Below are positions 21,329 through 29,116 of a DNA stretch of 64,000 nt, piece after piece (position 1 is the stretch's first letter; every line of letters starts with the position of its first letter). The stretch lies in the NCBI RefSeq assembly GCF_024345835.1, contig NZ_JAGQBW010000003.1, positions 1 to 64,000 on the forward strand. Direction: 5' to 3'. The DNA comes from Synechococcus sp. HJ21-Hayes. Lineage in GTDB: Bacteria; Cyanobacteriota; Cyanobacteriia; PCC-6307; Cyanobiaceae. The translations under genes were made by a program, and so were the position numbers. The notes below the pieces were generated by a model, which was given only the letters and a program-made list of their open reading frames with translations, was not told the DNA's origin and did no database searches.

Positions 21329-21655
21329 TCAGCCCTTTCCGGCCTTGTCCTTGACGTCTTCGACGGCATTGCGGACATTGGCCTCGGCCTGCTTCGCCTT
21401 GCCGGCAAGACGATCTCCCTGGTTGCCAGTGACGTTACCAATCGATTCCTGAGTTTTGCCTTCAAATTCCTTCGCTTCAGCCTTGACGCGGCCTGCGGTG
21501 ATGGCAAAGGGCATGGTAGATGCTCTGAAGATGAAGGCACTTGAGGCTTGGGCGGGAGAGCTGAAGAGCGGCATGGTCGTTAAGACCAGAAAGCTGAAGG
21601 CCATGCCCAAGCAAGTGGCGGCAAGCTGGCGCAGAGTACGCAGTTGGTTATTCAT
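21329..21655 (-). CDS. Membrane-anchored or exported CsbD-like protein
   Basis: From ATG 21655 (MNNQLRTLRQLAATCLG) the product is 108 residues with a hydrophobic N-terminal segment (about 13-33) and a C-terminal CsbD-like domain with GRVKAEAKEFEGKTQESIG and GDRLAGKAKQAEANVRNA. CsbD proteins are small stress-induced proteins of unknown mechanism; an exported form with a signal segment is a common cyanobacterial variant. It is the first of several stress-type genes on this strand. Confidence 0.8.
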   Translation of the reverse strand: MNNQLRTLRQLAATCLGMAFSFLVLTTMPLFSSPAQASSAFIFRASTMPFAITAGRVKAEAKEFEGKTQESIGNVTGNQGDRLAGKAKQAEANVRNAVEDVKDKAGKG

Positions 21656-21809
21656 GGCGAGGATGGCGAAGGGTACAGGATGTTTGACGATAGGCAAAGA
21701 CTGTGGCCGCCCATTCATCAGTACCAAGAATGGTCAAGATGCGGCCAATCATCGCTACTGTGTTCTGATCTTGACTATCTGACAAGAGAGTCGTGCTTCA
21801 TGCCGCTAT

Positions 21810-21974
21810 TCACAGCACGCTGCCCCGGCCTGCGACGAAGGAGATCAAGGCAAGCACGAGAAACACAACAAACAGAATCTTGGCGATGCTCATAGCAGAT
21901 CCGGCGATGCCACCAAAGCCAAGGACTGCTGCGACGATTGCAATGACAAGAAAGGCTATGGCGTAATTGAGCAT
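21810..21974 (-). CDS. DUF1328/YtjA-type small membrane protein (54 aa)
   Basis: This short gene begins [20 protein letters not shown] and continues [18 protein letters not shown], followed by [13 protein letters not shown]. That is the whole DUF1328 pattern: two membrane helices linked by GG(I)AG-A-S-AKILF. A good AAGGAG ribosome-binding site sits about 10 bases before the ATG. Members are linked to general and envelope stress. It lies between two CsbD genes and may be co-transcribed with them. Confidence 0.88.
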
Positions 21975-21985
21975 TAAAGAGCTCC

Positions 21986-22171
21986 TTAAAGGGTGTTGAG
22001 CATTTCGGAGATCTCTTGCTGGCTCTTGCCGAGCCTCTTCTGTAGATGGCCTAGGAATTCCTCTTCCTGGCCCTCTGCGTAGTTCACGTCGTTATCGGTG
22101 AGATCGGCAAACCTCTGCCTGAGTTTTCCTTTCAACTCGTGCCATTTACCCTTGAATTGGAGCTTGTTCAT
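21986..22171 (-). CDS. CsbD/YjbJ family stress protein (61 aa)
   Basis: The protein starts [19 protein letters not shown] and contains [19 protein letters not shown] and a helical end. This is the complete cytoplasmic CsbD/YjbJ fold with the KGKWxxLKGK opening motif. Its stop lies 11 bp upstream of the DUF1328 start, so the two are very probably one operon. Confidence 0.9.
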
Positions 22172-22783: not shown

Positions 22784-23053
22784 CTAAATGAAGATCGTCG
22801 AGGAGCCGTTAAGCGCGTTGCTGTTTCCAACAAAGTTAAATGAGTTGGTCGAAGATGTGAGCAATGGGACCACAATGATGGTTGGGCTCACTGAGATGCT
22901 TGGGCTAATCGAAACGGAAGGCGGCTGTGTGCTTGTAACCGGGGACGAGGTTGGGCGCTTTCTGCCGCCAAGAATCTGACTGCATTCGGCATCTCCAATT
23001 GCAGACAGGCCTTGATCTTGATGTTGCATGGATGCAGTAGATTTTGAGAGCAT
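22784..23053 (-). CDS. Double-glycine leader peptide precursor, copy A
   Basis: The 89-residue (81 from the second ATG at 23029) product has a leader ending GLSAIGDAECSQILGG and a Ser/Pro/Asn-rich core that ends TNSFNFVGNSNALNGSS plus a hydrophobic TIFI. The leader fits the GG-type signal cut by C39 peptidase-transporters: hydrophobic residues at regular spacing before Gly-Gly. The neighbouring gene encodes a second precursor with the same leader pattern and core ending. No modifying enzyme or C39 exporter is seen in the window. Function as a bacteriocin-like or signalling peptide is inference. Confidence 0.55.
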   Translation of the reverse strand: MLSKSTASMQHQDQGLSAIGDAECSQILGGRKRPTSSPVTSTQPPSVSISPSISVSPTIIVVPLLTSSTNSFNFVGNSNALNGSSTIFI

Positions 23054-23099
23054 TTCTAAATCCGTATTTAGCGAAAGAAGATGAGGGGCGGACGAGAAA

Positions 23100-23125
23100 G
23101 GCTCGTGGGGGTCAACCCACGAGCC
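23100..23125. terminator. Perfect 10-bp stem-loop between the two GG-leader genes
   Basis: GGCTCGTGGG (23100-23109) pairs perfectly with CCCACGAGCC (23116-23125) across a 6-base loop. On the minus strand the stem is followed by TTTCTCG. It lies 55 bp after the copy-B stop and 47 bp before the copy-A start, so it likely terminates or attenuates transcription between them. Confidence 0.6.
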
Positions 23126-23179
23126 AAGGAGGCAAGCAGGTGCTTACTCCACAACAGCGAGCATCGCTAAAAAGCGATC

Positions 23180-23476
23180 TCAGCTCAGGGTGGAACCAAT
23201 CGCATAGATGCCACTGCCGTTGAGGCTGTTGTAGTTGCTGTTGAAGTTGTAGCTATTGTTGGTGTTGTAGGAGTCCCTGATTCTGGTTACATAGCGATCT
23301 GCACGCGAGCTTCCACCGGAAAGCACTTCGCACTGCTTGTCTTCAAGAATGGCAAGGTTGGTCTTGGTGTTGTCTTGCGTAGGACTGGACCAATTGGTCC
23401 ACCTCTCGTCTACAGGGCTTCGTTGGCTGAAGATGGTCGCCGCCACATCTGCTGCAGGTGAGAGGCAGGCGGTCAT
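23180..23476 (-). CDS. Double-glycine leader peptide precursor, copy B
   Basis: The 98-residue product has a leader ending NLAILEDKQCEVLSGG and a core with SYNTNNSYNFNSNYNSLNGSG then IYAIGS. The leader shares I-x-D-x-x-C-x-x-(I/V)-L-x-GG with copy A, and the core shares N-S-(F/Y)-N-F...LNGS. The first part of the frame (MTACLSPAADVAATIF) is unusually long for a leader and the real start may be internal or non-ATG. A perfect stem-loop follows downstream. Confidence 0.55.
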   Translation of the reverse strand: MTACLSPAADVAATIFSQRSPVDERWTNWSSPTQDNTKTNLAILEDKQCEVLSGGSSRADRYVTRIRDSYNTNNSYNFNSNYNSLNGSGIYAIGSTLS

Positions 23477-23648
23477 TCGATGTGCAGGCTTGTTCAGCGA
23501 CTGTCATCACCCCTCCACTGGACGATCCAGTCACCCGTGCCGAGGTGCCGCTCCTCCGCCAGCTCCAGCGGACCAGCATCCGCGAGCACGATTCCCAAGG
23601 CACCAGCGCGGGCGATCTTCACGCTGCCGACTACAGGCACAGTGCCTG

Positions 23649-23750
23649 CCCCACCACCGCATGGGCGTGATGATGGCTTCCCATGCCCAGTGGAGCACCG
23701 TCCCTCCCGAAGCTGCGGGAGCTGGTGTTAGCAGTGGTTCGGCACAGTGA
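23649..23750 (+). pseudogene. Fragment of a DUF305 gene
   Basis: The frame reads PHHRMGVMMASHAQWSTVPP, almost identical to residues near the C-terminus of the intact DUF305 protein at 28355-28987, then changes frame character and stops. The upstream 170 bp are noncoding or antisense debris. It shows that a third DUF305 gene once stood here. Confidence 0.7.
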
Positions 23751-23809: not shown

Positions 23810-24238
23810 TCAGCGCTCGGCGGTGACCAGCACCGGAGTGGGAGGAGCCGGCGTGCGGCCTCCACAGGTTTCCCAGCTGTTGAGTAGGGCAAAAAGTTCG
23901 GCCTCCAGGTTCTGCATCGCTGTGATCTTCTCGCTGATCTCACCGGCCTTGCGGCGGATCCGCGCCTTCAGGTCACGGCAGGTGCAGGCGCCCGAGCGCC
24001 GCGCCTCGAGGATCTGCCGCACATCCGCCAGAGGAAGCTCCATGGCCCGCAGGGTGCGAACCAGGCCCAGTTCCACGACTACCGCTTCATCGAAGAGCCG
24101 GTAGCCGCCCTCGCTGCGGCTGCTCGGCTGGATCAGGCCCTCGTCGCAGTAGAAGCGGATGGTCTTGACGGTGAGGCCGGAGCGGCTGGCCACCACACCG
24201 ATCTGGAGGGACCGAGCAAGCACCACTTGACTCTCCAC
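23810..24238 (-). CDS. MerR-family regulator, heavy-metal type
   Basis: The 142-residue protein has a MerR winged helix (LQIGVVASRSGLTVKTIRFY then CDEGLIQPSSRSEGGYR), a dimerisation helix and a metal-site region with ACTCRDLKAR and a late Cys in SWETCGG. Such regulators twist promoters with long spacers when metal is bound. It is divergent from a DUF305 gene, and a MerR-type dyad lies in the 48-bp gap. The listed start is GTG 24238; a second GTG four codons later is equally possible and would leave the operator free of coding sequence. Confidence 0.88.
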   Translation of the reverse strand: MESQVVLARSLQIGVVASRSGLTVKTIRFYCDEGLIQPSSRSEGGYRLFDEAVVVELGLVRTLRAMELPLADVRQILEARRSGACTCRDLKARIRRKAGEISEKITAMQNLEAELFALLNSWETCGGRTPAPPTPVLVTAER

Positions 24239-24286: not shown

Positions 24287-24979
24287 ATGCGCCCTGCTCT
24301 CTTCTCCCTGGCGCTGTTCGGCTTGCTGGCGGCCTTAGTCCCCGCCCGGGCCCAGTTGGATCCCCATCACGGCCACCAGCAGATGGTTGCTCCTGCCCCC
24401 GCATCAACGCCGCCCGCCGCCCATCACCATGAGCTCGGTCCGGCCGGCAGCACCTACGACCTGCGTTGGCTCGACGGCATGGTGCAGCACCACACAGGCG
24501 CCCTGCGCATGAGCGAGTTTGTGTTCGACATCGGCCAGCCCGGTGTGGGCGCACTGGCCAAGTCGATCTGGCGTGAGCAGGCCCAGGAGATCAAGGCGAT
24601 GGGGCAATGGCGCAAAGCCTGGTATCCCGAAGCGCCGCTGTATCCCGTAGCCCTGAAGACCGGTGGCGATCCCAACAGCATCGAGAGCCTGGAGCGCATG
24701 AGCGCCGCCCACATCCAGGCGATGCAGATGATGGGCTCTACGCCCACACGGCAGAACCGCGTCATCTGGTTTCTCGAGGGAATGATCGCCCACCATGGCG
24801 GTGCGCTGGTGATGGCCCATGATGCCCTCAAGAAGAGCACCAACCCCACCATCTCGCGACTTGCCCGCGACATCATCGTGGCCCAGCGGCGCGAGATTCT
24901 CGAATTGCGCCGCATGCTCAAGCACGACGGTCTCGACAAACCCGAGTACTACCAATTCGATGCCCTCTTCTCGTTCTGA
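24287..24979 (+). CDS. Exported DUF305 protein, CopM-like
   Basis: The 230-residue protein has a signal peptide (MRPALFSLALFGLLAALVPARA) and two DUF305 half-domains with paired His motifs: WLDGMVQHHTGALRM and FLEGMIAHHGGALVM. A His-rich N-terminal stretch (LDPHHGHQQM, AAHHHE) adds possible metal ligands. Cyanobacterial CopM is a DUF305 protein that binds copper in the periplasm; the adjacent divergent metal-type MerR and its operator support metal-dependent expression here. Copper specificity is inference. Confidence 0.85.
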   Translation: MRPALFSLALFGLLAALVPARAQLDPHHGHQQMVAPAPASTPPAAHHHELGPAGSTYDLRWLDGMVQHHTGALRMSEFVFDIGQPGVGALAKSIWREQAQEIKAMGQWRKAWYPEAPLYPVALKTGGDPNSIESLERMSAAHIQAMQMMGSTPTRQNRVIWFLEGMIAHHGGALVMAHDALKKSTNPTISRLARDIIVAQRREILELRRMLKHDGLDKPEYYQFDALFSF

Positions 24980-28056: not shown

Positions 28057-28366
28057 TCCAGTGGCGGCTGAGCCCCTGAGAGTCGGCGAGATGGCGCAGC
28101 GCTTCGAACTCACCGTTCAGACGATCCACGTCTCAGGCGATGGTGGGTTGATCCAGCCCATCAGCCGCCGTGAGAGTGGTGACCGGTTGTGTCGCGGCGA
28201 GGTGTTCGCGCCGCTGACTCTGATCCGCACCCTCAAGGTGACGGACATCCCGCTCCAGGATCTGATCCGAATCCGGGACTCGTGGCTCGGACATCTGCAC
28301 CAGGAGCTCAATGCGCTACCCAGTAGCTGGGAAGACTGCGGCGGACGCAACCCCTCAGCGGCCTGA
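28049..28366 (+). pseudogene. Decayed MerR regulator lacking its metal-site helix
   Basis: The 105-residue reading starts like the intact MerR at 23.8 kb (LRVGEMAQRFELTVQTIH; LIQPISRRESGDRLCRGE) but the recognition helix is altered (HVSGDGG for FYCDEG). About 25 residues including the Cys-x-Cys metal motif are missing before LNALPSSWEDCGG. It is probably nonfunctional or has lost metal sensing. It ends tail to tail with the DUF305 gene, overlapping by 12 bp. Confidence 0.6.
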
Positions 28367-28987
28367 AGTGCCATACCACTGGCGATACCACCTCGCCATC
28401 TGCTCAATCTCCTGGCTCTGTACGCGCACCATGGCGGCCTCCAGCTCCCGCAGCTTGGGGTGTTGGGTCTTCCACTGGGCATGGGAGGCCATCATTACCC
28501 CCATGCGGTGATGGGGAATCATCTGCTCGATGAAGGCGCGATCGAAATCGGGGGCCAGCTTCAGTGCCTCAAGGCTGGTGGCCATTCCAGGCATCCCCAT
28601 CCCTGTTCCCATGCCCGGATGCCCTGTCCCCATGCCACCGGCTGTCCATGCCGGCACGTCGGTGCCGTACCACTCCCGGTACCAGCGGCGCATTTGGGCA
28701 TTCTCTGCCGTCTGACTGGCCTTGATCTTCTGCGCGAGGGCCTTGAGTTGCGGACGCTTGGCGCGGGTGAGCGCCAGCTCAGCCATCGCGATCGCCCCAT
28801 CGTGATGGGGAATCATCATCACCATGAAGTGTTGATCTGCGGACTGCTGGCCCATCGGCCCATGTCTTGGAGCCGGTGGATGGGCTGGTGTGATTGGTGC
28901 TGCACAAGCGGCAACGCCATGGCTGAACAGCAGGGCCGATACAAAGCCCGCACCCATGGACCATTGACGTGCATGTCCCCTGGTCAT
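28355..28987 (-). CDS. Exported DUF305 protein, Met/His-rich
   Basis: From ATG 28987 (MTRGHARQWSMGAGFVSALL) the protein is 210 residues with a signal peptide and two DUF305 units, HFMVMMIPHHDGAIAMAELA and FIEQMIPHHRMGVMMASHAQ. A Met/Gly-rich linker (GMGTGHPGMGTGMGMPGMAT) between them offers thioether ligands typical of copper-binding periplasmic proteins. Length and arrangement fit the CopM-like group. The upstream start at 29104 would give an unnaturally long leader. A decayed merR overlaps its 3' end. Confidence 0.83.
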   Translation of the reverse strand: MTRGHARQWSMGAGFVSALLFSHGVAACAAPITPAHPPAPRHGPMGQQSADQHFMVMMIPHHDGAIAMAELALTRAKRPQLKALAQKIKASQTAENAQMRRWYREWYGTDVPAWTAGGMGTGHPGMGTGMGMPGMATSLEALKLAPDFDRAFIEQMIPHHRMGVMMASHAQWKTQHPKLRELEAAMVRVQSQEIEQMARWYRQWYGTSGR

Positions 28988-29116
28988 GCTGATTCCCCCC
29001 TGAGAACTGATGTCAGCTTGATCAGGTTTTGCTCGGTGCAAGACGGATCCGCCCCTGCCGGTTACGCACCACGTTGGAACCACCGTGTCCACTGTGATGG
29101 CCAAGGCCCGGGATGG

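Follow-up and report, generated by a model that had tools for sequence, protein, structure and literature searches.

Two neighbouring frames, P2 and P1 (Table 1), lie on the minus strand of the window, by which we mean the whole 64,000-nucleotide stretch analysed here (C23:1-64000, from a 2.94-Mb genome in 39 contigs), and they correspond in sequence and order to the first two genes of a peptide-exporter operon in another genome of the same genus (G013). The best explanation we can offer, which we rate as an even call, is that they form an orphan P2-hairpin-P1 cargo module whose products leave the cell in trans through the exporter encoded on contig C4 of the same genome, and that these products are matrix-type peptides and not antibiotics. 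P1 and P2 would be small precursors with a double-glycine (GG) leader that is cut by a C39-peptidase ABC exporter, and cleavage after GG would release peptides of about 43 (P2) and 59 (P1) residues that lack Cys and are rich in Asn and Ser. The pair would be the counterpart, here standing alone, of the head of the G013 operon; the C4 exporter, with its own four GG peptides and HlyD, would also carry P1 and P2 out, and the exported peptides would most likely have a structural role at the surface or in the biofilm matrix, like EbfG1-4 of Synechococcus elongatus. The hairpin would probably end most transcripts past P2, leaving P1 less strongly expressed or dependent on a separate promoter, and partial termination after peptide genes could keep the peptides in excess over the exporter. 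Export in trans, cleavage at GG and attenuation are steps that we infer, while the matrix role is proposed by analogy with EbfG. The pair is unusual mainly by its separation from its exporter and otherwise fits known GG-peptide cargo.

Leaders, cores and coding signal of the two frames

An earlier note on this DNA had placed two minus-strand frames here, each with a GG, and both are present as described.

Table 1. Features of the P2-P1 region and its surroundings in the window (positions on C23)
Feature	Position	Strand	Remarks
P2	23180..23476	-	98-aa frame; transcribed first of the pair
P2 leader as annotated	23312..23476	-	ends ...AILEDKQCEVLSGG; likeness to known leaders confined to the last ~15 aa
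P2 predicted mature core	23183..23311	-	43 aa, ~4.8 kDa; 0 Cys, 8 Asn, 9 Ser, 5 Tyr
Terminator-like stem-loop	23100..23125	-	perfect 10-bp stem, 8 G-C, loop of 6, then TTTCTCGT; between P2 and P1
P1	22784..23053	-	89-aa frame; downstream of P2 in transcription order
P1 leader	22964..23053	-	ends LSAIGDAECSQILGG
P1 predicted mature core	22787..22963	-	59 aa, ~6.1 kDa; 0 Cys, Ser/Thr/Pro-rich, then NSFNFVGNSNALNGS
MerR gene	23810-24238	-	beside the HRMGVMMASHAQW stretch
DUF305 gene	24287-24979	+	pairs with MerR
Two CsbD-like genes and DUF1328 gene	21329-22171	-	downstream of the P1/P2 pair

Leaders were scored with a profile made from GG peptides that adjoin C39 exporters in other loci, P1 and P2 being excluded. 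Its source was a set of 37 peptides collected by hand, 33 of them encoded in operons of this genus or its relatives and four in G046, an S. elongatus-like genome; one G046 peptide, with GS in place of GG, was dropped, leaving 36, and one GGG-ending leader was moved by one residue to bring it into register. In leave-one-out scoring these 36 exporter-linked leaders reached 9.8-30.3. The P2 leader, at 19.9, falls inside this range and ranks first among the 551 GG sites that the six reading frames of the window contain, so that, as judged by the profile, it is a normal leader that clearly exceeds chance, of the kind expected in a C39 substrate. It was also aligned with class B2 peptides with an hhalign probability of 85.7% over 16 columns. 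The P1 leader, at 3.6, ranks second of the 551 sites, yet none of the 36 reference leaders scores as low (minimum 9.8), and four other stretches, with 560 GG sites between them, contain two of higher score, at 15.9 (leader-like) and 6.3 (probably chance). By its profile score alone the P1 leader is weak and at chance level, and the case for P1 rests instead on its G013 homologue, whose leader scored 12.5, and on the codon evidence. Compared as a profile with the remaining peptide classes, P1 gave no match (hhalign 0.4-6.5%). Of the GG leaders claimed for both products in the earlier note, that of P2 is borne out and that of P1 is a candidate. The consensus that had been proposed, I-x-D-x-x-C-x-x-(I/V)-L-x-GG, is an exact fit to neither product, its register being off; direct reading gives [I/L](-10) D(-8) [E/Q](-6) C(-5) [I/L](-2) GG as the GG-aligned pattern common to P1 and P2.

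The in-frame ATG, GTG or TTG codons that precede GG in P2 are an ATG at codon 1 and GTGs at codons 11 and 51, the latter three codons before GG, with no start codon between these two GTGs; read from the sequence, P2 has a leader of unusual length, or else its actual start is uncertain. In P1 a second ATG is found at codon 9, which would give a leader of 22 aa. The C-termini of the two cores are related over a stretch of 18 residues (NSFNFVGNSNALNGS in P1, NSYNFNSNYNSLNGS in P2), with a local score of 55 that was reached in 0 of 300 shuffles, as had been proposed for these Asn-rich ends; calling the two products paralogous holds for the leader pattern and these roughly 18 C-terminal residues and fails for the remainder of P1 and P2. 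Both cores are cationic, with net charges of +3 and +2. AlphaFold gave uninformative structures (mean pLDDT of 43.9 for class A, with 8 sequences, and 53.4 for P1 alone), and models of such low confidence made a fold search not worthwhile.

Codon choice in both frames is closer to host usage than that of random synonymous sets, the level of P1 being reached by 9 of 2000 sets and that of P2 by 0 of 2000, with ten hand-picked long frames as the host codon reference. This result bears on the main rival explanation, namely that the pair is a decaying remnant, either a second operon of the G013 type that has lost its exporter or a stranded copy, with expression or export gone. We regard this as unlikely, although it deserves serious weight: a P1 leader score under the reference range and a P2 frame without an ordinary start near its leader would agree with decay, whereas both frames are open, their codon usage is host-like and the stem of the hairpin between them is perfect.

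Homologues in relatives and exporter operons of the genus

Single-sequence searches with P1 and P2 covered 60 relatives, own genome included (59 others). P1 had one convincing homologue among these 59, in G013 (E 9.9e-7; local z 12.8), with 55% identity over 38 columns. Over 36 aligned codons, identity between P1 and this homologue was 0.67 at the first codon position, 0.78 at the second and 0.42 at the third; this last position is the least conserved, which is the pattern expected from selection on the protein. Since this constraint covers the entire time since the split from G013, a recent decay is still compatible with it. P2 showed a modest likeness to its G013 partner (z 5.2). When searched alone, P2 also pointed to G008 (E 0.11) and G014 (E 0.29), both within GG-peptide clusters, and these were rejected as homologues with E values at chance level.

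Two-row profiles (own genome, G000, plus G013) were then run over 300 family genomes from a larger group, G000 included. The P1 profile gave six matches at E <= 0.01, strong only in G000 and G013, both of them members of the profile. The weak matches in G254, G252, G100 and G110 were not counted as homologues; those in G254 and G100 contain internal stops, and no precursor of the P1 kind was present in three frames of the matched strand in G254 and G252. The four matches of the P2 profile at E <= 0.01 were G000, G013, G182 and G024, of which the last two were rejected, G182 being a GG peptide of class A and G024 matching in the leader only. Recognisable homologues are found in 1 of the 299 other family genomes sampled, that of G013. 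The earlier note had made conservation of the frames in relatives a check on its proposal, and they are indeed conserved, in this single relative, where they head an exporter operon; homologues in just one sampled relative would also be in line with decay of the pair. Searches of viral contigs, phages and plasmids with P1, used singly or as a two-row profile, gave no relative, which leaves a mobile origin unsupported for P1, and a search of a genome-contig collection with the P1 profile gave no match.

The G013 operon consists, in this order, of the P2-like gene, the P1-like gene, two further GG peptides, a 741-aa C39 exporter and HlyD, with an 11-bp hairpin separating the two genes at its head. 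The earlier note saw no exporter in the window, and in agreement with this a tblastn search of the 64 kb, using two HlyD proteins and two C39 exporters as queries, revealed neither a C39 exporter nor an HlyD protein; the sole match below E 0.1 was an ABC ATPase at 33.4-34.1 kb without a C39 domain. Precursor genes of C39 substrates usually adjoin their exporter, although this is not a strict part of the definition. No homologues of the other two G013 peptides were found beside the window pair either, and the lack of exporter, HlyD and both companion peptides next to P2 and P1 is a further point that a decaying remnant would account for.

A C39 transporter in the genome was the other check set beforehand. 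There is one PF03412 (C39) match in the own genome (E 4.9e-33), and it lies on another contig, C4. This exporter (locus L036 in G000; a protein of 748 aa, matched in a frame of 766 aa) has C39, ABC membrane and ATPase domains, and is flanked by four GG peptides of its own upstream and by HlyD downstream. It is 59% identical to the G013 exporter and 72-76% identical to those of five other loci, and in a quick tree the C4 and G013 exporters fell in separate groups. Being of different subfamilies, they imply that export of the pair in trans would cross types: the pair resembles cargo of the G013 type and the only C39 match of the genome is of the other type, so that cargo and exporter are mismatched. 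The genes near the C4 exporter include a family-2 glycosyltransferase, for which the match to cellulose synthase was only below the cut-off, a GH26 protein, a UDP-glucose/GDP-mannose dehydrogenase and an NAD-dependent epimerase. The presence of the exporter operon together with polysaccharide-type genes at positions 7290-17961 of L036 (G000 C4) suggests a joint polysaccharide/peptide surface locus.

Across the genus, C39 domains were found in 17 of 25 genomes, at 25 places, and the 15 strongest of these (E 1.3e-24 or better) were examined in longer stretches. In 11 of the 15, belonging to 11 genomes, two to four GG peptides lie directly upstream of the exporter, and exporter operons with GG peptides are therefore present in at least 11 of the 25 genus genomes. 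The remaining places (L076, L077, L082 and L083) have no GG-peptide set upstream of the exporter; leader-like GG sites occur elsewhere in the L077 and L082 stretches and fit other exporter types. The profile of class A4 peptides found matches in 11 of 300 family genomes, those in the own genome being only the two known C4 places. As a separate observation, L096 is a contig under a Betaproteobacteria label whose C39 exporter falls together with one from Cyanobium (support 100), and it was probably misbinned.

A broader generalisation, which we consider rather doubtful, is that freshwater picocyanobacteria share a modular, fast-evolving family of secreted matrix peptides, many of whose genes finish with a terminator-like hairpin of their own, and that such gene-plus-terminator cassettes move or become stranded, their products being exported in trans across exporter types. 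If that were true, P1 and P2 would be an instance of it, with one exporter serving cargo of another type. Likely cargo genes can sit far from an exporter, and exporter-centred mining would miss them. Together with the 11 operons of the genus, the window pair makes up a defined set for testing in freshwater-type picocyanobacteria, with which one could ask whether such peptides have a surface matrix role outside S. elongatus and whether hairpins between peptide genes set their ratios.

Intergenic hairpins and the genes around the pair

The perfect 10-bp stem-loop that the earlier note had described between the genes is confirmed. A terminator scan of the interval 22.4-23.9 kb gave one site against a shuffle average of 1.4, and the hairpin by itself is not statistically special in that interval; within the P2-P1 gap, a perfect 10-bp stem was obtained in 0 of 200 shuffles. 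The gap qualifies under the terminator criterion, as do 7 of 200 of its shuffles, and the equivalent G013 gap, with its 11-bp stem and too few T, fails it. A wider count was made over 28 peptide-peptide gaps in 12 operons, 11 of the genus and one of the family (L036-L039, L073-L075, L078-L081 and L084), with one 6-base gap in L084 left out and the P2-P1 gap of the window scored apart, outside the 28. Coding-strand hairpins of the terminator-like kind are present in 16 of these gaps, against a shuffle mean of 0.4 and a maximum of 2 in 200 sets, and on the opposite strand of the same gaps there is one. Hairpins are thus frequent in the gaps of related operons, and that of the window fits this architecture.

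On the other side of P2, a plus-strand stretch at about 23650-23750 (HRMGVMMASHAQW) resembles by eye part of the DUF305 protein encoded at 28355-29104, and is perhaps a broken DUF305 paralogue, judging by that resemblance; Pfam gave no match on the frame at 23337-23750. If it is indeed such a fragment, its position beside P2 would be one more point for decay of the pair, to be set against the open frames and intact stem mentioned above. The MerR-DUF305 pair that follows recurs in many genus genomes according to a conserved-neighbour test, done with flanks of 1.5 kb, which are too short to reveal an empty site. The CsbD/DUF1328 region at the opposite end is a stress-type neighbourhood with no evident tie to peptide export.

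Relation to known double-glycine peptide systems

The function of cyanobacterial GG peptides of this kind has been tested in one species among the papers found, S. elongatus, where biofilm formation is reported to need EbfG1-4 together with the C39 exporter PteB (PMC4997328, PMC9981879) and EbfG1-3 form amyloid (PMC9981879). This is the closest characterised system found. As described there, the precursors are small (9-10 kDa), carry GG leaders and are encoded as a set upstream of the C39 exporter. Four GG-type peptides are also encoded upstream of a C39 exporter in G046, and they are recognisable as EbfG by sequence, one having AQNIG, as given for EbfG4, and two resembling by eye the secreted fragments reported in PMC4997328. 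The C4 exporter is 52% identical to the G046 exporter. The cores of EbfG and of P1/P2 are alike in being Cys-free and rich in Ser/Thr/Gly. They differ in that there is no core homology (hhalign core probability of 0.26% for P1 and 0.15% for P2), in that the EbfG set adjoins its exporter and the window pair does not, and in that direct reading of P1 and P2 shows no EbfG amyloid hotspot A-Phi-N-I-(G/S), as defined in PMC9981879, P1 having ALNGS. Membership of the EbfG family was rejected on the core profile comparison (below 1%) and the missing hotspot; by analogy, P1 and P2 would most likely work like EbfG without belonging to its family.

The operons are also comparable to clusters that were described earlier under another name. 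Wang et al. (2011) define group III "bacteriocin" clusters by a short-type C39 exporter, HlyD and several precursors, assign them to the bacteriocin class by genome mining and list two of them in Cyanobium PCC 7001 (PMC3140520). The C4 and G013 loci agree with what is given there, with a short exporter (C39, ABC membrane and ATPase), HlyD and several double-glycine precursors, while the window pair departs from it in having no adjoining exporter. P1 and P2 might be antibacterial bacteriocins or microcins that leave through a C39 exporter and act on competitors, an explanation that we judge improbable. GG leaders are typical of bacteriocins, the cores are cationic, the classification just mentioned favours it, and likenesses below threshold exist for P1, with the bacteriocin-like family NF046113 (E 0.0045, 17 bits, cut-off 40), and for one C4 peptide, with LcnG-beta (E 0.023, 15.3 bits, cut-off 29.4). 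Against it, the cores have no Cys, the genome has no LANC_like match at E <= 0.01, and in the only cyanobacterial case found whose function has been studied, such a layout serves biofilm formation. Neither P1 and P2 nor the related peptides matched any curated family above its cut-off, and the bacteriocin or RiPP use mentioned in the earlier note is not favoured. Class II bacteriocin membership was rejected, the sub-cut-off NF046113 match of P1 being the only hit and Pfam being empty for both products. The precursors of RiPPs with NHLP/Nif11 leaders (prochlorosins) share with P1 and P2 a GG cleavage site and picocyanobacterial hosts, and this type, or a lanthipeptide, was discarded since no NHLP/Nif11 model and no LanC-like protein was matched and the cores are without Cys. 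A 2023 survey of RiPPs in marine Synechococcus deals with lanthipeptide-type clusters (PMC10783134). No description of the P1/P2 pair or of the related operons was found in the literature covered, which took in few subscription journals and no supplementary tables of precursors.

Short exported peptides often act as signals, and each operon encodes several different peptides, which would suit products sensed by neighbouring cells or cargo with another non-structural role. We consider this very improbable, given that Asn/Ser/Thr-rich cores of 43-59 aa seem better suited to a structural function, and a matrix-type role for the exported pair is preferred.

With respect to other structural peptides, curlin repeats of the CsgA kind were considered and rejected, there being no Pfam match for P1 and P2, and only LcnG-beta, in one peptide, among eight related ones; CsgA chains were absent from the PDB matches of the class A and P1 profiles. 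The cores of the class A peptides (L085-L088) show a G/N/Q pattern, VGQxN..NNLGLG..G.GNAxSxQ.N, and its GxGNAxSxQ part, with no curlin family match, recalls curli repeats in what we take to be a resemblance only.
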